This document shows, in pieces, positions 30,775 through 43,848 of a stretch of 64,000 nucleotides of DNA. The stretch's first letter is position 1. Each line of letters opens with the position of its first letter. The stretch spans positions 294,922 through 358,921 of the forward strand of contig NZ_CANMCP010000004.1 of assembly GCF_947496385.1 (NCBI RefSeq), read 5' to 3'. Under the pieces are notes generated by a model that was not told the origin of the DNA, did not search any database, and worked only from the letters and a program-made list of their open reading frames with translations. A program made the translations under genes and the position numbers. Source of the DNA: an uncultured Croceicoccus sp. (GTDB taxonomy: Bacteria > Pseudomonadota > Alphaproteobacteria > Sphingomonadales > Sphingomonadaceae).

Positions 30775-31804
30775 CAGCACGACAGATGTCTTCGATGCCT
30801 GGTGGGGCTGGCCGCCGCCGGTTCTCGACCCCGCCGGGCCATATGCGGACAATGTGGTCGTGCTGGCGTGGGCGCTGTTCGCGATGGGGGTGATCGTCAC
30901 CGGCATCGTGGTCGTCGCGCTTTACGTCGCGATCCGCGGCCCCGCGCGGTGGAAGGCGAAGCTCGGCGGCGAAAGGCTGGTGTGGATCGGCGGGGTCGCA
31001 TTTCCCGGCGTGGTGCTGACCTGCCTGCTGGTGTGGGGGTTGTGGCTGACGTCCTCGCTCACGCAGCCGATGCCGGATGGGGCCATGCGGGTGCGGGTCA
31101 CCGGCTACATGTGGTGGTTCGACGTCGAATATCTCGGCCCCGATGGCGATGTGATCATGCGCGACGCGAACGAGCTGCATATCCCGGTCGGGCAGCCGGT
31201 CGTGGTGGAGCTTCAAAGCGAGGACGTGATCCACAGCTTCTGGGTGCCGAACCTGTCGGGCAAGGAGGACATGATTCCCGGCCGCACCAACGAATTGGTG
31301 ATCGAGGCGGATCGTCCGGGCCGTTTCGGCGGGGTCTGCGCCGAATATTGCGGCGGCCCGCATGCGTTGATGGGTTTTGTCGCGGTGGCGCATGAACAGG
31401 CGGACTGGGCCGCGTGGCTGGCGGGGCGGAGCATGACGCCGCCCGCCATCGCGGAGCAGGACGTGCCGGGCACGGTGCCCGCCCTCCGCCCCGCCGCGGC
31501 CGCCGATGCCGCAGATGACGCGGCGATCGCGGCGAACGGGCGCACGCTGTTCATGGAAAGCGGGTGCGCGGCGTGCCACCGGGTCGCGGGGACCGAGGCG
31601 AACGGCATCGCCGGCCCGGATCTCACCCATGTGGGGAGCAGGCTGACGCTGGGCGCGGGGATATTGCCGAACAATCGCGGCACCATGATCGGGTGGATCG
31701 GGGACAGCCAATCGATCAAGCCGGGCAATCGCATGCCGAGTTACGACATGCTCTCCGCCGATGAACTGACCGCCATCGCCATCTGGCTGGAACAGCAGCG
31801 ATGA
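30767..31804 (+). CDS. coxB: Cytochrome c oxidase subunit II with fused cytochrome c (caa3-type)
   Basis: 345 residues. Two membrane helices, then the CuA cupredoxin domain with IHSFWVPNLSGKEDMIPGR and the copper cluster CAEYCGGPHALM. A C-terminal cytochrome c domain follows, with SGCAACHRVAG and a Met ligand in KPGNRMPSYDML. The usual acidic residue before the GHQWYW motif (Glu62 in bovine numbering, the K-channel entry) is absent: the stretch reads LTSSLTQPMPDG, then VTGYMWWFDVEYL. ATG 30767; its stop overlaps the start of the subunit I gene. Confidence 0.94.
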   Translation: MNSSTTDVFDAWWGWPPPVLDPAGPYADNVVVLAWALFAMGVIVTGIVVVALYVAIRGPARWKAKLGGERLVWIGGVAFPGVVLTCLLVWGLWLTSSLTQPMPDGAMRVRVTGYMWWFDVEYLGPDGDVIMRDANELHIPVGQPVVVELQSEDVIHSFWVPNLSGKEDMIPGRTNELVIEADRPGRFGGVCAEYCGGPHALMGFVAVAHEQADWAAWLAGRSMTPPAIAEQDVPGTVPALRPAAAADAADDAAIAANGRTLFMESGCAACHRVAGTEANGIAGPDLTHVGSRLTLGAGILPNNRGTMIGWIGDSQSIKPGNRMPSYDMLSADELTAIAIWLEQQR

Positions 31805-34389
31805 GCGATGCACCGCGGCCGGGCACCCGCGACGTGATGGCCGGGCGCAGGTCCGAAACAGGCTTCGATCACGCGCTCTACGCCCGCTTCCCGACGCAGG
31901 AGCCGCGCCCCGATGGCGAGGTCGAAGAGCTGGAGAAGATCTGGGACAACCCCAGGGGCTGGGGCCTGCTGACCGTCGTCAACAACAATTACATCGGTTT
32001 CTTCTACGTCGCGACGGCGTTCCTGTTCTTCCTCCTGGCCGGCGTGCTCGCGCTGGGCATGCGGATACAGCTGGCCGCGCCGATGCAGGATTTACTGCCG
32101 CAGGACACCTATAACCAGTTCTTCACCATGCATGGCACGGTGATGATGTTCCTGTTCGCCGTGCCCATGGTGGAGGCGATCGGCGTGATGCTGCTGCCGC
32201 AGATGCTGGCCGCGCGCGACCTGCCGTTTCCGCGATTGTCGGCCTATGCGTTCTGGGCGTATTGCGTGGGCGGGCTGTGCTTCTTCGCGAGCATTTTCGT
32301 CGGCCTTGCGCCCGATGGCGGGTGGTTCATGTATCCGCCGCTCACCTCCATCGCCTACAGCCCGGAAATCAACACCGATTTCTGGTTGCTGGGCATCGGC
32401 TTCATCGAGATCAGCGCGATTGCCGGCGCGATCGAGATCATCGTTGGCGTGCTTCGCACCCGTGCGCCGGGGATGACGCTCGACCGGATGCCGATGTTCG
32501 CCTGGGCGATGCTGGTGTTCGCGGTGATGATCGTCGTCGCCTTTCCCAGCGTCATTCTCGGTACCTTGCTGCTCGAACTCGAACGGGCTTTCAACTGGCC
32601 TTTCTTCGATCCGACGCGCGGCGGCGATCCGCTCTTGTGGCAACACCTGTTCTGGTTCTTCGGCCATCCGGAGGTCTATATCATCTTCCTGCCCGCCGCC
32701 GGGTTGATGAGCATGATGGTTGCCACCGTCGCGCGCACGCCATTGGTGGGGTACCGGCTCAACGTGCTGGCGCTGGTGGCGACGGGGTTCATCAGCTTTG
32801 GCGTGTGGGCGCATCACATGTTCGCGACCGGCATGCCGCGCGTATCGACGGGATATTTCAGCGCGGCCAGCATGGCGGTCAGCCTGCCCGCCGGGATACA
32901 GGTGTTCTGCTGGATCGCGACGCTGGCGGCGGGGCGCATCCGGTGGTCGACGCCCGCGCTGTTCGTGGTGGGCAGCATCGTCGTGTTCGTGATGGGCGGG
33001 CTTACCGGCGTGATGGTCGGCATGGTCCCGTTCGACTGGCAGGCGCACGACAGCTATTTCATCGTCGCGCATCTGCATTACGTGCTGCTGGGCGGGATGG
33101 TTTTTCCCATGTTCGCCGCGTTCTATTACTGGAACGGGATGACGTCGAAGAACGCGTTGTCGGAACGGCGCGGGAAATGGGTGTTCTGGCTGATGTTCAC
33201 CGGGCTGCACATCACGTTTCTGCCGATGCATCTCACCGGGTTCATGGGGATGCCGCGCCGCGTCTATACCTATCTGCCGGGGCGGGGGCTGGAATGGCTC
33301 AACCTTGTATCCACCATCGGCGCGTTCGTCCTTGCGGCGGGGGTGTGCCTGTTCCTCTACGACCTGGTGCGCCGGTTCCGGTTCACCACGGACGAGGATG
33401 CGGGCAATGTCTATGGCGGCGGCACGCTGGAATGGTTGCCGACGGGGATGTATTCGACCCGCTCGATCCCGCTGGTGAAAAGCCGGGAGCCGATGTGGGA
33501 CGATCCGGAGCTTGGCGATGATGTCGCCGCGGGCCGCTATTTCCTGCCCAATAGCGCGACGGGCCTGCGCGAAACGCTCATTACTTCGCCCATCAATGCG
33601 GAGCCGCAATATATTCAGCTCATGCCCGGCCCGTCGGCATGGCCGGTGGCATCGGCGGTGTTTACCGCGGGCTTCTTCCTCGCGCTGACCGTGCAGGCCT
33701 ATGTGTTTTCGGCGGTGAGCGGCGTGCTCGCCGTTGCCTGCATCCTGCGCTGGCTGTGGGAAACGGACCGTCCGATCGAACAGGACCATGCCGATATCGG
33801 CGGCGGGATCACCGTGCCCATCGCGATCACCGGGCCATCCTCGCACGGGTGGTGGGCGCTCAACACGGTCATGGTGGTCATGGGCATGATCGTGTTCATG
33901 GCGCTGTTCAGCTATCTCTATCTCTTCGGCATCAATCCCGAATTCTGGATCGCGCCGCCGGATGTGTTGCAGACGGCGGGGATCGTGGTCCTGCTTGTCG
34001 CGGCGTTTGCGGCGGCGTGGCTGTCGCGGCGGATCCTCGCGGCAAAGGCGCGCGGCGAATTTCCGGGGCAGGGGCCGTGGCTCATGGCGGTCATCGCGGC
34101 GGCGCTGCTGTGCGTTGCGGGGTGGTGGGACTGGACCGGGTGGCGGGGCGCCGGGCTCGACCCTTCGGCCAGCGGTCAGGGGGCTACGGTCTTCGGCCTG
34201 CTCGCGTTTCAGGCCTGCAGCGCTGGCATCGCGGCGATCATGGCGCTCTATCTCGGCTATCGCAGCGGCAGGGGGCTCCTCGTCGCGCCGTCGAGCGTCA
34301 CGCTCGACATCGTGGTGCGCTTCATCGGCTATGCCGCGGTGCAGGGGCTTGTCATCGCGCTTGTCGTGCGACTGTTTCCGGGGGGCTGA
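31801..34389 (+). CDS. Cytochrome c oxidase fused subunit I/III (caa3-type, A family)
   Basis: 862 residues: subunit I (about 1-600) followed by five helices of subunit III (about 620-862). Heme and copper ligands are present: HGTVMMFLF, FFGHPEVYIIFLP (CuB His, the channel Glu and the cross-linked Tyr), WAHHMFATGM and IVAHLHYVLLGG. The D-channel Asp is present (ARDLPFPR). However, the helix VIII segment reads SLPAGIQVFCWIATL, where nearly all A-family enzymes have PTGxKVFSW. Thus the K-channel Lys is Gln and its Thr neighbour is Ala. Terminal oxidase of the cytoplasmic membrane; overlaps coxB by four bases. Confidence 0.95.
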   Translation: MSDAPRPGTRDVMAGRRSETGFDHALYARFPTQEPRPDGEVEELEKIWDNPRGWGLLTVVNNNYIGFFYVATAFLFFLLAGVLALGMRIQLAAPMQDLLPQDTYNQFFTMHGTVMMFLFAVPMVEAIGVMLLPQMLAARDLPFPRLSAYAFWAYCVGGLCFFASIFVGLAPDGGWFMYPPLTSIAYSPEINTDFWLLGIGFIEISAIAGAIEIIVGVLRTRAPGMTLDRMPMFAWAMLVFAVMIVVAFPSVILGTLLLELERAFNWPFFDPTRGGDPLLWQHLFWFFGHPEVYIIFLPAAGLMSMMVATVARTPLVGYRLNVLALVATGFISFGVWAHHMFATGMPRVSTGYFSAASMAVSLPAGIQVFCWIATLAAGRIRWSTPALFVVGSIVVFVMGGLTGVMVGMVPFDWQAHDSYFIVAHLHYVLLGGMVFPMFAAFYYWNGMTSKNALSERRGKWVFWLMFTGLHITFLPMHLTGFMGMPRRVYTYLPGRGLEWLNLVSTIGAFVLAAGVCLFLYDLVRRFRFTTDEDAGNVYGGGTLEWLPTGMYSTRSIPLVKSREPMWDDPELGDDVAAGRYFLPNSATGLRETLITSPINAEPQYIQLMPGPSAWPVASAVFTAGFFLALTVQAYVFSAVSGVLAVACILRWLWETDRPIEQDHADIGGGITVPIAITGPSSHGWWALNTVMVVMGMIVFMALFSYLYLFGINPEFWIAPPDVLQTAGIVVLLVAAFAAAWLSRRILAAKARGEFPGQGPWLMAVIAAALLCVAGWWDWTGWRGAGLDPSASGQGATVFGLLAFQACSAGIAAIMALYLGYRSGRGLLVAPSSVTLDIVVRFIGYAAVQGLVIALVVRLFPGG

Positions 34390-35523: not shown

Positions 35524-36315
35524 TCAGTGCCCGCGAAAATCGGGCGGACGCTTTTGCGCGAAGGCTTCGCATCCTTCCCTGAAATCCGCGGTTCCCAGCG
35601 CGAGACACTGCACATGGTTTTCCAGTGCGATCGCGGCACGCAGGCTGGGCGCCTCCAGATTGCTTCGCATGACCTGTTTCGTGTGTTTGACCGCATAGGG
35701 GCTGTTGGCGGTGATCTGCCGGGCGAGGGTGAGCGCCTCGTCCTGCAACATGTCCGGTTCGCACAATGTGGTGACGAGGCCGGTGCGATGCGCCTCCTCG
35801 GCATCGACGGCGCGCCCGGTGAGCATCATTTCAAAGGCGCGCCCGGCCCCGACGATGCGCGGCAGGTGATAGCTGATCCCGCATTCCCCCGCGCTCAGCC
35901 CGATCTTTACCGCGCCGATCAGGAATCTGGCCGTCGTGGCGGCGATGCGGATATCGGCCGCCAGCGCCATCCCCATCCCTGCGCCCACCGCCGGCCCGTT
36001 GAGCGCGGCAATGACCGGAAAGCGCGATTCCGAAATCTCGCACATCAACGCGGCAAATCGTTCCTGAAGGTCGATATTGGCGAAATTATCGGGGGCCTCT
36101 TCGCCGTCGCCCACAATCTCCTTGAGATCCAGCCCGGCACAGAAAACCCCGCCGCGAGCCGTCAGGATCAGCAGGCGCACATCGGGATCGTCCTGCAATT
36201 CGGCGATTGTGCCGCGAAGCTGCGCAACGAGGGGGAGGGTCAGGGCATTGGCCGCATCGGCCCGGTCGAGCGTGATGCGGGCGATGCCGGAATCGAGCAT
36301 GTCGCACGCGATCAT
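35524..36315 (-). CDS. Enoyl-CoA hydratase/isomerase family protein
   Basis: 263 residues of the crotonase fold. FCAGLDLKEI and ALNGPAVGAGMGMALAADIR form the oxyanion-hole segments. GAGRAFEMMLTGRAVDAEEA holds the second catalytic Glu (Glu164 in rat hydratase numbering). The first catalytic Glu position (GAVKIGLSAGECG) is not Glu by my alignment, so the reaction may be isomerisation or another crotonase reaction. ATG 36315 overlaps the upstream lactonase stop, so the two form an operon; the track ORF extending to 37023 is not all real. Confidence 0.9.
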   Translation of the reverse strand: MIACDMLDSGIARITLDRADAANALTLPLVAQLRGTIAELQDDPDVRLLILTARGGVFCAGLDLKEIVGDGEEAPDNFANIDLQERFAALMCEISESRFPVIAALNGPAVGAGMGMALAADIRIAATTARFLIGAVKIGLSAGECGISYHLPRIVGAGRAFEMMLTGRAVDAEEAHRTGLVTTLCEPDMLQDEALTLARQITANSPYAVKHTKQVMRSNLEAPSLRAAIALENHVQCLALGTADFREGCEAFAQKRPPDFRGH

Positions 36316-37184
36316 GATGCAGTCTCCAGCATGCGGAGCGATGTCGGCGCGCTGCACAGCCCTGCGACATCGGAAGGAACCGTGATGATGCCGCCCTTTC
36401 CGGGATTGTCCGCATTGCCGCCGGTGGACACGTAGAGCCGGGTCGGATCGTGGGCGGCGAAGGCGACGCTGACGAGGTGGGGAAAGCCCGCGCGCACCGT
36501 GTCCATGGTCGTCCCGTCGGGCGAAACGCGCACCAGCGTCCCGCTTTCCCAGCAGGCCACCCAGAGGCACCCCTCGGTATCGAGTGCGAGCCCGTCGCTG
36601 TCCGCGAAGGGAGCCAGCAGCGTGCCTTCGCCCGGCAGGCCATCCTCGCCCATCGGGTAGCGCCAGATGCCCTTGCTTGTTTCCGAATGATAGAGCCAGC
36701 GCCCGCACGCGCTGAGCGCGATACCGTTGGAGGCGAACACGTCGCGGCGTAATATGGTGACCTCGCCGGCCGCGCTCATGTGAAAGAACTGCCCCGGTTC
36801 GGGCTCCTCTCCGCGGAGAAGAATCGCCTCGAAATCGATGGTCCCTGCAAAGAAACCGCCTCTGCCGTCGCCTTCCATGTCGTTGACAGCGACGATGTCC
36901 CTGCCCTCCAGCCGGTCGAGCACCTTCGTCACGGCGCCCGATACGGGGTCGAGAGCGACGATCCCGCCGCGCCCGCTGCACAAGAGCTTGCCCGACGAAT
37001 CGAACAGCATGCCGCCCACCCATAGGCGGTCGGCGAGCATGGTTTCCACCGGTTGCCCGGGCCGCTTGCGATAGATGCCGCCGCCGGTGAGATCGCTGAA
37101 CCAGACATCGCCTTCGGCAGAGACGCGCGGCGCCTCGACAAACTCGTAACCCTCGACAAGCGTTTCGTGCACATCCTTCTCCAT
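36312..37184 (-). CDS. SMP-30/gluconolactonase family protein
   Basis: 290 residues, six-bladed propeller: FVEAPRVSAEGDVWFSDLTG at the start (metal Glu), ASNGIALSACGRWLYHSET (Asn ligand) and APFADSDGLALDTEGCLWVA (Asp ligand). The family hydrolyses lactones. ATG 37184 follows ACGAGG; the 623-codon ORF extends far beyond the protein and is a shadow upstream. Cotranscribed with the crotonase and divergent from the TetR gene at 37272, so probably regulated by it together with the Rieske genes. Confidence 0.9.
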   Translation of the reverse strand: MEKDVHETLVEGYEFVEAPRVSAEGDVWFSDLTGGGIYRKRPGQPVETMLADRLWVGGMLFDSSGKLLCSGRGGIVALDPVSGAVTKVLDRLEGRDIVAVNDMEGDGRGGFFAGTIDFEAILLRGEEPEPGQFFHMSAAGEVTILRRDVFASNGIALSACGRWLYHSETSKGIWRYPMGEDGLPGEGTLLAPFADSDGLALDTEGCLWVACWESGTLVRVSPDGTTMDTVRAGFPHLVSVAFAAHDPTRLYVSTGGNADNPGKGGIITVPSDVAGLCSAPTSLRMLETAS

Positions 37185-37271: not shown

Positions 37272-37982
37272 GTGCCTATTCTCCGCGACCCGAACGCCCC
37301 TTTTGGCGCCATTCCGTTCGAGCCTGATCCCATCCGCTGGATGAAAGACAGCGCCGTTTTCGAACGGCCGCGTCAACAACGCAGCCGCGATGCGCTGGGC
37401 CGGATCATCGTTGCGGCGCTCCGCCTGTTTTCCGAAAGCGGGTTCGAGGCGACTCGCGTCGCCGACGTCGCGGCCGAGGCGGAGGTTCCGGTCGGCACGG
37501 TGTACAAGCATTTCGCCGACAAGGATGCGCTGCTCGCCGCGATCGTCGATGGGTATCGGCGTTGCCGGATGCAGGAGATCCGCGCGCTTTGCACCTCGGA
37601 TGCGGCCATGGCGGCGAGCCCGCGCGCGCTTGTATCGCTGCATCTCGATATCGTGTTCAGTGCGTTCACGCTCGATTCGGGCCTGCTGCGGCTGATCGAG
37701 CGGCGCCGGCTCGAGGATTCCGCCACCCATCAGGACCAGAGCGCCGCCAATGAGATCGTCGCGACGCTGATCGCGGACCGGCTGGTGGAAAAAATGCCGG
37801 AAAGGGATCCGGCACAGCTGCGCCGGGAGGTTCACTATGCCCATTCGATCATTCGCGGGGCGGTGGTCTGGTCCGAGCTTCCCGCAGGCGGCGAGCTGGG
37901 GAAGGGGCTGCGCGTGACGGACATCGAGTTCGCGCGCCAGGCGTTGCTGATGGCGCTGCGCTACCTCCGCATTCCCGAGTAA
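37272..37982 (+). CDS. TetR/AcrR family transcriptional regulator
   Basis: 236 residues. HTH: RQQRSRDALGRIIVAALRLF, then FEATRVADVAAEAEVPVGTVYKHFADKDALL, a standard TetR DNA-binding domain. The GTG at 37272 gives a 35-residue leader ahead of the HTH; ATG 37341 is an alternative. It lies between the divergent lactonase/crotonase operon and the Rieske operon, so it is the likely switch for both. A palindrome at 38141 in the next promoter region may be its operator. Confidence 0.85.
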   Translation: MPILRDPNAPFGAIPFEPDPIRWMKDSAVFERPRQQRSRDALGRIIVAALRLFSESGFEATRVADVAAEAEVPVGTVYKHFADKDALLAAIVDGYRRCRMQEIRALCTSDAAMAASPRALVSLHLDIVFSAFTLDSGLLRLIERRRLEDSATHQDQSAANEIVATLIADRLVEKMPERDPAQLRREVHYAHSIIRGAVVWSELPAGGELGKGLRVTDIEFARQALLMALRYLRIPE

Positions 37983-38140
37983 AGCACCCCCGTTACCACA
38001 GGACCGCCCGGGAACAGGCCGCGCGAAAGCGAACGGCCCGAAGCCTGTGGGACGGTTCCGACCGGCCCTGCCTGCGCTCGATTTACCATCTTGACCCATG
38101 GCGGACGTTGCATCATCCTCAAAGAAAATGAACATGAAAT

Positions 38141-38157
38141 CATATTCACGTAATATG
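38141..38157. promoter_or_regulatory. Candidate operator upstream of the Rieske operon
   Basis: CATATTCACGTAATATG has perfect 6-base arms around CACGT in an AT-rich stretch 26 bases before the first Rieske gene. The upstream TetR protein is the obvious candidate to bind it. There is also a TTGACC at 38091, too far away to be its -35 element. Confidence 0.45.
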
Positions 38158-38182: not shown

Positions 38183-39559
38183 ATGACCGATGTGCAGGCG
38201 CTCATGCGCGAAAACTATCCGGGCAACACCTGGGCCGATGTCGCGGAGCGTGATGGCCGCCTGCCGCCCGTCCTCGCGCAGCAGAGCAATCCTGCGCAGG
38301 ATCTCTCCGACATTCCGTTCGAACGCTATATCGGGCAGGATTTCTTCGAGGCCGAGTTCGAGCATGTCTGGAAACGCGTGTGGCAGTTCGCCTGCCGCGA
38401 CGAATATCTGGAAGAGCCGGGCGATTTCTTCGTTTACGACATCGGCCGCCTGTCCGCCGTCATCGTGAAGACCGACACCGGGTTGAAGGCGTTCTACAAT
38501 TCCTGCCTGCACCGGGGGACGAAGCTGAAGCCTTCGGGTTCGTGCGGTTGGTCGCCCGACATTACCTGCCCCTTTCACAACTGGAGCTGGAATCTCGACG
38601 GGTCGCTGAAGAACATCCCCTGCGATTTCGAATTTCCGCAGGTGGAGCGGGACAAGGCCGGCCTGACCAGCGTTCAGGTCGAAAGCTGGAACGGGATGGT
38701 GTTCGTGAACTTCGACGCGGACGCGCCGCCACTGGTCGCTTATCTCGAAGTCCTGCCCGACCATTTCCGCAACTGGGACCTGCGCGGATGGTATGTCGCC
38801 ACCCATGTGCGCAAACATCTGCCGGGGAACTGGAAGCTGTCGATGGAGGCTTTCATGGAAGCCTATCACACGCCCTTCGTCCATCCCGAGATGACGAACG
38901 TGGTGGGCGACCATAACATGCAGCACGACATATTCTCCCGCCATGTCAGCCGCGACCTGTGCGCCATGGCAACGGCCAGCCCCACCGCGCAGAAAAGCAT
39001 GAGCGAGCAGGAGTTGCTCGACATGATGCTCGTCGGTGACGGCAAGATGATCGGCGCACGCGCGAAGGTGCCGGAGGGAAAGACCGCCCGGTGGGTCATG
39101 GCGCAGCAGCTTCGCGAGCGGATGAAAAGCGAATTCGACCTCGATTACTCCGGCCATTCGGTGCCGGAGATGATCGATTCCATCAAATATCACGTCTTTC
39201 CCAATGTCATGATCTACCCTGCGCCCGGTCTGTGCCTAGTGCAGCAATTCCGGCCCGACGGGCATGACCGCGACCATTCGATCTTCGATCAGTACGTGCT
39301 CCATCCCAAGCCGCGCGACGGCAAGTACGAAGTCGCCGAAGTCGAGGAACTCGGCGAGGACGAGGCCTTTGCCAGCCTCGAAAGCATGGACCCTTTCCTC
39401 GCCAGCGTGCTCGACCAGGATACCGATATCATGCGGGCGCAGCGCGAGGGCATGTACACCAGCGGCAAGGGTGCGCAGACGCTTTCCTCCTATCAGGAAT
39501 CGCGGATCCGGCATTTCCACAAGACGCTGGGCGAATACATGCAGGACGCTTCGGCATGA
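38183..39559 (+). CDS. Rieske non-heme iron oxygenase, alpha subunit
   Basis: 458 residues. Rieske [2Fe-2S] site: SCLHRGTKLKPSG and DITCPFHNWSWNLDG (C-x-H ... C-x2-H). Catalytic iron site: MEAFMEAYHTPFVHPEM, where the bridging residue is Glu instead of the Asp205 of naphthalene dioxygenase. Glu there is known from single-component-type monooxygenases such as CntA. No beta subunit, ferredoxin or reductase gene lies in the cluster, so it must use a reductase encoded elsewhere. Start of a four-gene operon; ATG 38183 fits the family. Confidence 0.93.
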   Translation: MTDVQALMRENYPGNTWADVAERDGRLPPVLAQQSNPAQDLSDIPFERYIGQDFFEAEFEHVWKRVWQFACRDEYLEEPGDFFVYDIGRLSAVIVKTDTGLKAFYNSCLHRGTKLKPSGSCGWSPDITCPFHNWSWNLDGSLKNIPCDFEFPQVERDKAGLTSVQVESWNGMVFVNFDADAPPLVAYLEVLPDHFRNWDLRGWYVATHVRKHLPGNWKLSMEAFMEAYHTPFVHPEMTNVVGDHNMQHDIFSRHVSRDLCAMATASPTAQKSMSEQELLDMMLVGDGKMIGARAKVPEGKTARWVMAQQLRERMKSEFDLDYSGHSVPEMIDSIKYHVFPNVMIYPAPGLCLVQQFRPDGHDRDHSIFDQYVLHPKPRDGKYEVAEVEELGEDEAFASLESMDPFLASVLDQDTDIMRAQREGMYTSGKGAQTLSSYQESRIRHFHKTLGEYMQDASA

Positions 39560-40050
39560 GCGCCCCGATCAGGGGGGTCCACCACGTCGGCATGAGCGTG
39601 CCCGACCTCGATACCGCGCGGCGTTTCTTCATCGACCTGCTCGGCGCTGAGGAAATCAGCGCCGCCGAATGGGAGCCGGGCGATGCGATGATCGACGCGA
39701 TCGTCGGCTTGCGGGATTCGGCGGCGAAAACCTTCATCGCGCGGCTGAAGAACGTGCAGGTCGAATGTTTCGAATATAGCAGCCCGCGCGCACCGGACGC
39801 GGACCCGGACCGCCCCGTCAACCATTTCGGCTACACCCATGTCGGGTTCGAGGTCGACGATATTCAGGCCACCTACGAGCGCATGATCGACGCGGGCCTG
39901 ACCTTCCACACCCCGCCCGATCTCAGCACGATCACCACCGACGAGGATGGGCGCAAGACCGGTTTCGCGGCGACCTATGGGCGCGATTATTTCGGCAATG
40001 TGTTCGAGATCCTCGAAATCCATGAAAACGACATGATCAAGCCGAACTGA
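39556..40050 (+). CDS. VOC (glyoxalase/extradiol dioxygenase fold) family protein
   Basis: 164 residues with two beta-alpha-beta-beta-beta units: IRGVHHVGMSVPDLDTARRF, then HFGYTHVGFEVDDIQATYER, and the C-terminal metal Glu in FGNVFEILEIHEND. Metal ligands His, His and Glu can be seen in these motifs. It may be a lyase, isomerase or ring-opening dioxygenase acting on the Rieske product. ATGA overlap with the first Rieske gene shows they are made together. Confidence 0.88.
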   Translation: MSAPIRGVHHVGMSVPDLDTARRFFIDLLGAEEISAAEWEPGDAMIDAIVGLRDSAAKTFIARLKNVQVECFEYSSPRAPDADPDRPVNHFGYTHVGFEVDDIQATYERMIDAGLTFHTPPDLSTITTDEDGRKTGFAATYGRDYFGNVFEILEIHENDMIKPN

Positions 40051-40093
40051 CGCCGCGGGGCGCCACGCGAAAACACAAGGGGAGAGCAAGCCG

Positions 40094-40921
40094 ATGGATC
40101 TCGAACTCAACGGCAGGAAAGTGGTTATCAGCGCCGCGACGCGCGGCATCGGCCGGAGCATCGTGGAGAGCTTCCTCGACGAAGGGGCGATCGTATCCTT
40201 CTGCGGCCGGCGCGCGCAGGGCAAGCAAGGCAATCCGAGCGACGAGAGCGTTTTTGCCAATCCGTTGACCGGCGATGGCGTCGAAGAGGCGGTCGCCGCT
40301 CTCGAAAAACGCGGCACGGTTTTTGGTTCGGTCGTCGATTGCGGCTATCCCGAACAGGTGGAGCGATGGGTCGAAAAGGCCGCCGCGGACATGGGCGGTA
40401 TCGATATTGTCGTCTCCAATGCGAGCGCTCTTGGCGGAACGCCGCGCAGTCGCAAGGGGTGGGACATCAATTACAATGTCGATCTGATGTCGGCGGTCGC
40501 GATGTTCGATACAGCGCTTCCCTATCTCAAGGCATCGGACGCGGCGGCCTTTGTCCAGATGTCGACGATCACGGCAATCGAGAACCACGCGTTCGGCGAA
40601 TCGGGTTTGAGCTATGGCGCGATGAAGGCCGCGCTCATCAATTACACCCATCAGCTGGCCATGGATTACATGAAGGACGGCATTCGCTGCAACTGTGTCG
40701 GGCCTGGGCCGGTCTATATCGCCGACGGCAGCTGGGGCTATCTCGAAAAGGAGATGCCGGATTATTTCGCCGCCAACAGGGACAGGCATCCCGCCGGTCG
40801 TTTCGGCAGGCCGGAGGAGATCGCCGATGCGGTGCTCTATCTCGCGTCGGCGCGGGCGTCGTGGATCACCGGCGTGAACCTCACCGTCGACGGCGGTTTT
40901 ACCCGCAACGTCAAATACTGA
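40094..40921 (+). CDS. SDR family oxidoreductase
   Basis: 275 residues; cofactor motif ISAATRGIGRSI (an SAATRGIG variant of the usual TGxxxGIG), active-site MSTITAI and YGAMK, and C-terminal TGVNLTVDGGFT. The SAAT variation of the glycine motif occurs in some SDR subfamilies. It lies between the VOC and the second Rieske gene, 43 bases after the former. Probable cis-dihydrodiol or alcohol dehydrogenase for an oxygenase product; not provable from sequence. Confidence 0.9.
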   Translation: MDLELNGRKVVISAATRGIGRSIVESFLDEGAIVSFCGRRAQGKQGNPSDESVFANPLTGDGVEEAVAALEKRGTVFGSVVDCGYPEQVERWVEKAAADMGGIDIVVSNASALGGTPRSRKGWDINYNVDLMSAVAMFDTALPYLKASDAAAFVQMSTITAIENHAFGESGLSYGAMKAALINYTHQLAMDYMKDGIRCNCVGPGPVYIADGSWGYLEKEMPDYFAANRDRHPAGRFGRPEEIADAVLYLASARASWITGVNLTVDGGFTRNVKY

Positions 40922-40944
40922 TCGTTATCGGAAAGGCTATCGCG

Positions 40945-42357
40945 ATGGACAGGACCGCAACCGACGCCGAATGGGGCGAGGATCGCAGCGAGGGCATCAG
41001 CTGGTCCGAGCTGATGGAGAAGGATTCGCGCACCCCGCCGGCCGCGCTGACGGAGCCGAGCTATACCTATCGCGGGTCGGAGCCCATTCCCGCCGAACGC
41101 TACACGAGCGAGGCATTCGCGCAGGCCGAGCGGGAGAAAATGTGGCCGCATGTCTGGCAATTCGCCGCGCGCGAGGAAGACTTGCCCGAACCGGGCGATT
41201 TCATCGTCTATGAAAATGCGGGCCGCTCCTTTCTCGTTTCGCGGCAGGAGGACGGTTCGGTGCGGGCAATGCACAATGTCTGCCTCCATCGCGGACGCAA
41301 GCTGCGCACCGAGGACGGCAATACCGACCGATTTACCTGCCCTTTCCACGGTTTCACGTGGAACAAGAACGGGTCGTTCGATCACGCGCCGTGTCAGTGG
41401 GATTTTCGTCACCTGGCCCAAAAGGACATGGACCTGCCCGACGCCGAGGTCGGGCGATGGGGCGGCTATATCTTCGTGCGGGAGGAGAAGGGCGGCCCCA
41501 GCCTGGAGGAGTATCTCGCGCCGCTTCCCGAACATTTCAAACGCTGGCGGCACGAGGAATGCGTGACGGTCATGCGCGTCGCCAAGGAAGTCGCCGCAAA
41601 CTGGAAAGTGACGATGGAGGCGTTCATGGAGGCGTGGCACACGGTCGTCACCCATCCGCAACTCCTGCCCTTCACCGGCGATTGCAACGCGGCATACTGG
41701 ACCTGGGGCGACAATGTGAATGCGAACTTCACCCCCTTCGGCGTGACCAGCCCCCATGTTACCGAGGGTAAGGGGCAGCAGTGGATCGTCGACGAATTCG
41801 TGAAATTCAACGGGCGCAGTGCCGACAATTACGAACAGAATGCCGACCCCATGGCCATTGCCGTTCCCGACGGCATGACCGCCCGCGAAGCACTGGGCGC
41901 GCAGATGCGCAAGCTTTATACCGAGCAGACCGGCTATGATCACGAGGATGCGACCGATGCGGAATTGCTCGATGGGCTGGTGTATAACGTCTTTCCGAAT
42001 TTCGCGCCGTGGGCCGGCTTCATGCCGAACATCGTCTATCGCTGGTTGCCGGGACGGACGCCCGACACCTGCGTGATGGAGGTGCGGATCCTCTCGCGGG
42101 TAAAGCGGGGCGAGCCCATGCCGCATGGCGCGCCGCTCAAATTCCTCACCCTCGACCAGAAATGGACAGAAGCGCCCGAACTCGGCGTGCTGGCCGATGT
42201 TTTCGAACAGGACATGGAAAATCTTCCCTATGTGCAGGAAGGGCTGCATTGTTCGAAAAACGGGGAAGCGCAGCTGGGCAATTATCAGGAAATCCGTATC
42301 CGTCATTTTCAGGATACGCTGACGCAATATCTCGATCGCGAGAGCGACGACGGATAA
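40945..42357 (+). CDS. Second Rieske non-heme iron oxygenase, alpha subunit
   Basis: 470 residues. Rieske site: VCLHRGRKLRTEDG and RFTCPFHGFTWNKNG; catalytic site MEAFMEAWHTVVTHPQL, again with Glu before the His pair and with Trp in place of Tyr. It is clearly paralogous to the first oxygenase of the operon but far from identical. ATG 40945 has a weak AAAGG upstream; the ORF extends 200 codons back through the SDR gene in another frame and is not real there. No beta subunit is present, as with its paralogue. Confidence 0.93.
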   Translation: MDRTATDAEWGEDRSEGISWSELMEKDSRTPPAALTEPSYTYRGSEPIPAERYTSEAFAQAEREKMWPHVWQFAAREEDLPEPGDFIVYENAGRSFLVSRQEDGSVRAMHNVCLHRGRKLRTEDGNTDRFTCPFHGFTWNKNGSFDHAPCQWDFRHLAQKDMDLPDAEVGRWGGYIFVREEKGGPSLEEYLAPLPEHFKRWRHEECVTVMRVAKEVAANWKVTMEAFMEAWHTVVTHPQLLPFTGDCNAAYWTWGDNVNANFTPFGVTSPHVTEGKGQQWIVDEFVKFNGRSADNYEQNADPMAIAVPDGMTAREALGAQMRKLYTEQTGYDHEDATDAELLDGLVYNVFPNFAPWAGFMPNIVYRWLPGRTPDTCVMEVRILSRVKRGEPMPHGAPLKFLTLDQKWTEAPELGVLADVFEQDMENLPYVQEGLHCSKNGEAQLGNYQEIRIRHFQDTLTQYLDRESDDG

Positions 42358-42930: not shown

Positions 42931-43848
42931 ATGATGCGGCTCGACAATTTCGATCTCAACCTGCTCGTGGCGTTCGACGTGTTGATGCAGGAGCAGAACG
43001 TCACCCGCGCGGCCCATCGCCTCCACGTCACCCAATCCGCGATGAGCGCGTCTCTCAAGCGGCTGCGCGAAAGTTTTCAGGACGATATCCTGGCGCAGCA
43101 TGGCAAGCGGATGATACCGACGCCTTTCGCGCTGACCATGCAGGGTGAGATTGCGGACAAGATTTCGGAGCTTCGCGCGCTCATCACGCGGCAGGGCAGT
43201 TTCGATCCCCGCCGGTCGGAGCGGCGCTTCCGCATCGCCGCCTCCGATTACATCACGACGGTCCTTCTGGCCCCGCTGCTCGACACGCTGGAACAGGACG
43301 CGCCATTGGCCAGCTTCACCTTCGAACTGCCCGGCCCGGAATCGCAGGTAGCGCTGGGCAATGGCGATCTCGACCTCATGTTCACGCCCGAAATCTTCCT
43401 CCATCCCGATCATCCGCATGAACTCGTGTTCGCGGAACGGCACGTGACCGTCGCCTGCCCCGAAAATCCGCGCGTTGCCGGAGGGTTGAGCCGGGCGACC
43501 TTCCTCGATTCCGGCCATGTCGGGGTGAGCGTCGCGCGCAAGCAGACCTTTGCCGACGCATGGCTGATGCAGAACGCGGTCGAACGGCGGATCGAGGTGC
43601 GGGTGCCGTCCTTCATCCAGGCGCCGTTCCTCGTGCCGGGAACGCAGCGGCTGTGCGTGATGCATGAAAGGCTCGCGCATGATATGGCGAAGCGCCTTCC
43701 CCTGAAAATCCTGCCGGTGCCGTTCCCGATCCCGCCGATGCGCGAGATGATGCAGTTTCATGCGACGCGAAAGGGCGATCCGGGGTTGAGCTGGCTGAGA
43801 GGCAAGATCTACGAGATGGCATCCCGCCGCACCCCGCCTTCGGCCTGA
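42931..43848 (+). CDS. LysR family transcriptional regulator (NodD-like)
   Basis: 305 residues. N-terminal winged HTH: LDNFDLNLLVAFDVLMQEQN, then VTRAAHRLHVTQSAMSASLKRLRESFQDDIL. The effector domain follows (RRSERRFRIAASDYITTVLL and so on). The NodD subfamily is suggested by DLNLLVAFDVLMQE and by the gene being preceded by an ATC-N9-GAT box. It probably activated the now broken monooxygenase or controls the Rieske operon. No functional divergent gene remains. Confidence 0.9.
   Translation: MMRLDNFDLNLLVAFDVLMQEQNVTRAAHRLHVTQSAMSASLKRLRESFQDDILAQHGKRMIPTPFALTMQGEIADKISELRALITRQGSFDPRRSERRFRIAASDYITTVLLAPLLDTLEQDAPLASFTFELPGPESQVALGNGDLDLMFTPEIFLHPDHPHELVFAERHVTVACPENPRVAGGLSRATFLDSGHVGVSVARKQTFADAWLMQNAVERRIEVRVPSFIQAPFLVPGTQRLCVMHERLAHDMAKRLPLKILPVPFPIPPMREMMQFHATRKGDPGLSWLRGKIYEMASRRTPPSA

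Follow-up and report, generated by a model that had tools for sequence, protein, structure and literature searches.

We analysed a 64,000-nucleotide window of DNA from an uncultured Croceicoccus sp. (contig NZ_CANMCP010000004.1, positions 294,922 to 358,921), located on contig C4 of a 3.34-Mb source genome (G000:C4), in which an initial annotation made from the letters alone had pointed to twin stand-alone Rieske oxygenases (ROs) in one operon. The locus comprises two RO alpha-subunit genes, RO1 and RO2, on either side of genes for a VOC-fold protein and an SDR dehydrogenase, preceded by a TetR-family regulator gene and by a divergent lactonase-crotonase pair. In window coordinates, its features are:

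35524..36315, minus strand: crotonase/enoyl-CoA hydratase family protein (ECH); Pfam ECH_1 at 3e-56; 4-base overlap with the lactonase gene
36312..37184, minus strand: SMP-30/gluconolactonase-like beta-propeller hydrolase (SGL, lactonase); Pfam SGL at 5e-36; start inferred from ATG
37272..37982, plus strand: TetR-family regulator; Pfam TetR_N at 2e-16
38091..38119, plus strand: putative RO1 promoter (TTGACC, 17 nt, CATCCT), read from the sequence; ends 9 bp before the palindrome
38129..38148, plus strand: 20-bp palindrome TGAACATGAAATCATATTCA inside the 200-bp gap between TetR and RO1
38183..39559, plus strand: RO1, Rieske oxygenase alpha subunit of 458 residues; Pfam Rieske and Ring_hydroxyl_A
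39556..40050, plus strand: VOC-fold protein of 164 residues; Pfam Glyoxalase_4/Glyoxalase
40094..40921, plus strand: SDR dehydrogenase of 275 residues; Pfam adh_short_C2 at 1e-43
40945..42357, plus strand: RO2, second Rieske oxygenase alpha subunit, 470 residues from the ATG at 40945; Pfam Rieske and Ring_hydroxyl_A

The RO1 and VOC genes overlap by 4 bases, 43 bp lie between VOC and SDR, and 23 bp between SDR and RO2. Open frames and Pfam families bear out the proposed arrangement of two intact alpha subunits flanking a VOC protein and an SDR, and the subunits are as divergent as had been claimed, sharing 32% identity over 455 residues. With Pfam scores above cut-off, both RO1 and RO2 are, by sequence criteria, alpha subunits of Rieske non-haem iron oxygenases. 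At 36-44 kb the guanine-plus-cytosine content is 0.62-0.63, compared to 0.65-0.68 in most of the surroundings; the reduction recalls accessory islands, but is weak evidence, as the window's final 4 kb are nearly as low (0.634).

The closest named relatives of RO1 are those of Croceicoccus pelagius and C. sediminis, from which a Croceicoccus is the most likely host. Among named genomes, orthologues of 67-89% identity occur in Croceicoccus, Novosphingobium, Aquisediminimonas and Rhizorhabdus, as well as on the PP1Y megaplasmid. The usual order in Croceicoccus and Novosphingobium loci is ECH-SGL, divergent from TetR-RO1-VOC-SDR; more distant loci hold the same gene families in rearranged form. 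SGL is syntenic in most orthologous loci, ECH adjoins it in L077, L079, L080, L081 and L070 and is arranged otherwise in L089 and L090, and TetR stands immediately 5' of RO1 in the window, L070, L076-L085 and L146. Because the same order is kept in other genera, the gene set is not a product of chance. Judged by these comparisons, the conserved unit is TetR-RO1-VOC-SDR together with the divergent lactonase-crotonase pair, and RO1 is its core. The earlier description of a coherent catabolic island including the lactonase, crotonase and TetR genes thus gains support from synteny in several genera and from the conserved palindrome discussed below.

Among the module proteins, the SDR is the best conserved, with 89% mean column identity over 14 orthologous loci and S157, Y174 and K178 invariant in the 14 orthologues; an SDR is also the most frequent gene following ROs of the RO1/RO2 family (15 of 40). 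The metal site of the VOC protein is complete, H10, E70, H95 and E151 being invariant in 16 orthologues; the site is of the glyoxalase type, and the protein weakly resembles methylmalonyl-CoA epimerase and FosB. For the lactonase, the best solved-structure match is 7plb (1.4e-17). The module is patchy in its distribution, a close SDR orthologue being present in 3 of 401 sampled Sphingomonadales genomes. Outside the core, the flanks of orthologous loci vary (TonB receptor, nitronate monooxygenase-like, acyltransferase, amidohydrolase, one flavin reductase), and these differing neighbours gave no clue to the substrate; nor did SDR relatives in loci lacking RO1, where two matches of about 60% adjoin rimK-type and argG genes.

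The pattern TGAAYATGANNTCATRTTCA, which describes the palindrome between TetR and RO1, occurs once in the window (0 expected in shuffles) and has a single occurrence in the whole genome even when 3 mismatches are allowed. Very similar palindromes occupy the same position 5' of RO1 in ten other loci (L070, L076-L084), each being the sole strong match in its locus under a scoring matrix derived from those same sites, and L085 and L146 carry weaker, degenerate variants at the same spot. Judged by its position and conservation, 38129-38148 is very probably the TetR operator. Since the palindrome is unique in the genome and conserved upstream of RO1, we propose that TetR is a dedicated repressor of the RO1 operon alone. 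The TTGACC-containing stretch of the putative promoter recurs 5' of RO1 in related loci; a generic promoter scan did not list TTGACC-17-CATCCT, the promoter and terminator scan performing at chance level.

Unlike this core, RO2 is, by its distribution and phylogeny, an accessory gene added to the module in Croceicoccus. It lies directly behind SDR only in the window genome and in C. pelagius, C. sediminis and C. ponticola, and the module lacks it in every Novosphingobium locus of this gene order and in a Croceicoccus metagenome-assembled genome (L083). RO1 and RO2 fall into distinct, well-separated subclades of the tree and are for this reason not a recent tandem duplicate. The module RO2 sequences cluster together (SH-aLRT 100) inside a 22-row family that elsewhere adjoins ThuA, which argues for a later recruitment of RO2. 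The RO2-ThuA-SDR module of Novosphingobium and relatives holds direct RO2 orthologues, about 70-80% identical, but there RO2 has three divergent SDR genes on one side and ThuA on the other, while here it follows RO1-VOC-SDR. More broadly, an RO2 orthologue and an adjoining ThuA-domain gene, mostly with a divergent SDR, were seen in L042-L053, L056, L071, L072 and L074, covering many Sphingomonadales. C. sediminis (G121) has an additional RO2-family gene (77%); in the window genome no second RO2 copy was found, and ThuA gave no match in a search that had no positive control in that genome.

These observations bear on the claim that the twin oxygenases form a functional unit, a dedicated pair oxygenating successive positions of one substrate. 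Such a pair would fit the placement of RO2 only 23 bp behind SDR and its retention at 85-90% identity in the other three Croceicoccus species, and no fewer than 9 of 201 family genomes do contain same-strand RO pairs within 3 kb (a lower bound, compiled by hand from listed positions). RO adjacency as such, then, is common in the family. Against a dedicated pair stand the modules that do without RO2 and the RO2 orthologues whose neighbours are ThuA and three divergent SDR genes; as each oxygenase occurs without the other in relatives' loci, neither RO1 depends on RO2 nor RO2 on RO1. The pairing claim is weakened accordingly, and we regard it as rather unlikely.

Turning to the oxygenases themselves, alignment confirms that both have a full Rieske and a full mononuclear iron site. 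The Rieske ligands C108, H110, C129 and H132 of the CxH...CxxH motif and the 2-His-1-carboxylate ligands H229, H234 and D413 (RO1 numbering) are all kept in RO1 and have their equivalents in RO2. The bridging residue is Glu in both (E226 in RO1), as had been noted, but this feature is not distinctive: of the 127 relatives and references aligned, 123 have Glu and 4 have Asp at this position, and a bridging Glu is established in CntA (E205; PMC7948474). The Asp-bridge enzymes NdoB (F-V-G-D) and HcaE (F-A-S-D) have one additional residue ahead of the carboxylate, which the Glu-bridge enzymes examined (F-M-E) lack, and it seems that the longer Glu side chain may compensate for this one-residue shortening. 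RO1 and RO2 also have the aromatic residue two positions before the Glu bridge (CntA position 203). In the 127-row alignment this residue, a reported mark of group Va, corresponds to Phe in NdoB, HcaE and the thiomarinol enzyme TmlW too, and therefore does not discriminate. AlphaFold2 models were confident, with a mean pLDDT of 89 for RO1 and 82 for RO2. The leading Foldseek matches of the RO1 model were stachydrine demethylase (Stc2), 3n0q and CntA, so that its predicted fold is closest to alpha-only enzymes, while the ranking for RO2 was mixed, with terephthalate dioxygenase and CntA.

The phylogeny with characterised oxygenases that had been suggested as a check places RO1, RO2 and TmlW in one clade (97% SH-aLRT, 104 rows), with NdoB, HcaE and CntA outside. 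TmlW is what we take the RO of the thiomarinol plasmid pTML1 to be, as the sole full-length RO annotated there; it matches RO1 over its full length with 33% identity over 458 residues and 254 bits, comparable to the match between RO1 and RO2. TmlW and MupW oxidise an unactivated aliphatic position en route to an epoxide (PMC8159325, PMC8827043), and the grouping moderately favours aliphatic over aromatic oxidation for RO1. Both share with RO1 the metal ligands and a Glu bridge without inserted residue, and in both loci a small partner gene follows directly downstream. The partner there, however, is the epoxide hydrolase TmlZ/MupZ in a biosynthetic polyketide context, whereas here VOC, SDR, lactonase and crotonase form a catabolic-looking, TetR-linked module. 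No known pair with an established substrate came above 60% identity, the closest experimentally studied relative found being at 33%, so that the initial annotation stands on this point, and searches of one literature library found no paper describing these genes. A steroid or bile-acid lead (Chol11 KshA homologues) was dropped, as these are other Rieske monooxygenases with no link found.

Near the locus there is indeed no beta subunit, ferredoxin or reductase gene, as had been stated, and a beta subunit is missing genome-wide: Ring_hydroxyl_B (PF00866) had 0 matches in the 100%-complete window genome, while the same search was positive in control genomes. Missing partners at the locus are to be expected, as candidates are encoded elsewhere in the genome, namely a pair of short, soluble Rieske ferredoxins, at C7:116.1 kb and C18:21.4 kb, and a pair of reductases of the Reductase_C (BphA4) type, at C4:72.4 kb and C7:96.8 kb; a FAD_binding_6 (CntA-type) reductase was absent from the window genome in a family search. 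Six gammaproteobacterial relatives of RO1 have a Rieske ferredoxin gene immediately after the RO, and pTML1 also carries a Rieske-type ferredoxin. For these reasons, the electron donor is likely a shared, unlinked Rieske ferredoxin. One Rieske ferredoxin gene was seen in another catabolic island of the same genome (L158:721-19770; G000:C7, ~113-132 kb), together with genes for a P450, a flavodoxin-type reductase and TauD, a GMC oxidoreductase, an acyl-CoA ligase, a thiolase, SDRs and an additional Rieske oxygenase.

The reading that we prefer, and would believe about as readily as doubt, is that of a TetR-controlled peripheral catabolic operon in which an alpha-only oxygenase fed by a Rieske ferredoxin acts on a non-aromatic or alicyclic substrate. 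A BphA4-type reductase would take electrons from NAD(P)H and hand them to a soluble Rieske ferredoxin, which would reduce the Rieske cluster of RO1; from this cluster they would cross the subunit interface via Glu226 to the Fe(II) coordinated by His229, His234 and Asp413. RO1 would then oxygenate an unactivated C-H of an alicyclic, terpenoid- or polyketide-like compound, giving an alcohol for the SDR to oxidise, and the metal-dependent VOC protein would rearrange the product; the lactonase would open a lactone, with the crotonase acting later on a CoA thioester. RO2 would probably widen the range or add a second oxygenation. TetR, bound to 38129-38148, would repress RO1-VOC-SDR(-RO2) until an intermediate binds to it.

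Several points weigh against this reading. The kind of substrate is conjectural, and the module is without CoA ligase, transporter and ring-cleavage enzyme, which makes the order of the steps a guess. TetR binding to the palindrome is inferred, and the lactonase-crotonase promoter has no such palindrome. As for TmlW, its naming rests on pTML1 having only one annotated full-length RO, its branch is long, the fork is drawn open and the tree program warned of long branches; moreover, 33% identity is insufficient to fix a reaction, and TmlW is biosynthetic, not catabolic.

One could go further and see in RO1, RO2 and about 100 mostly Sphingomonadales relatives a class of Glu-bridged, beta-less, Rieske-ferredoxin-fed oxygenases of aliphatic C-H bonds, each with a small isomerase or epoxide-opening partner (VOC here, SnoaL/NTF2-like proteins in the pNL2 and C. 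marinus clusters), as a catabolic counterpart of the MupW/MupZ cascade; we consider this extension speculative and improbable. On pNL2 (L071:6335-12269) and a C. marinus plasmid (L074:9585-12455), RO genes are interleaved with SnoaL/NTF2-like and VOC genes, an arrangement that resembles the TmlW/TmlZ layout of an RO plus a small partner.

Aromatic ring dihydroxylation of a polycyclic aromatic hydrocarbon, biphenyl or aromatic acid would be in keeping with the Pfam family name, with an SDR that could be a cis-diol dehydrogenase, and with the richness of Sphingomonadales in aromatic degradation. Naphthalene dioxygenase (NdoB) and HcaE do share the Rieske and catalytic domain architecture and the metal ligands with RO1 and RO2. 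These alpha3beta3 enzymes, however, need beta subunits, for which the window genome has no gene, are distant in the tree, have the Asp bridge with one more preceding residue, and come from operons with ferredoxin and reductase; besides, the module is without an extradiol or other ring-cleavage gene, the small VOC protein having a glyoxalase-type site, and we hold this alternative to be doubtful at best. Most unlikely of all is an activity of RO1/RO2 on quaternary ammonium compounds, as in the group V enzymes CntA, GbcA and Stc2: it would agree with the Glu bridge and preceding aromatic residue seen in CntA/OxyBAC (PMC7948474), the lack of a beta subunit, GbcA as the top NCBIfam model and Stc2 and CntA as top Foldseek matches of RO1, but the GbcA score is 105 bits against a cut-off of 670, identity to CntA/YeaW is ~17% in the structural alignment, these lie outside the RO1/RO2/TmlW clade (CntA itself on a long branch), their electron-partner type differs, with no CntA-type reductase in this genome, and the module is without betaine, carnitine or other quaternary amine genes.

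Under our preferred reading, the locus of this marine bacterium is a small, self-regulated catabolic operon of an ordinary sort, not described before but no novel type of system. Sphingomonads have very many RO genes of unassigned use, some genomes holding at least 8 relatives of RO1/RO2, and the operon places one such RO in a defined unit: a set of core genes under a probable dedicated repressor, with a predicted operator at one precise site. As ligands can be screened against the repressor, the substrate should be findable. The locus also cautions that neighbouring oxygenases need not be a natural pair, and that a CntA-style Glu/aromatic signature is no proof of a quaternary amine substrate.

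Around the operon, a LysR-family regulator gene (window 42931-43848) lies downstream of RO2 and was rejected as part of the unit, its orthologue being present in 0 of 22 syntenic loci. Directly upstream of the island, at 31801-34389, is an 862-residue frame whose translation, judged by eye, resembles a fused cytochrome oxidase subunit I-III. Among the compared loci, the oxygenase cluster of a Sphingomonadales metagenome-assembled genome recurs almost unchanged on a contig assigned to Candidatus Kuenenia (L092/L093), and this contig is probably mis-binned. In L117, L123, L125, L127 and L141, an amidohydrolase-family gene of ~415 residues precedes an RO from a distinct subfamily with ~42% identity to RO1.

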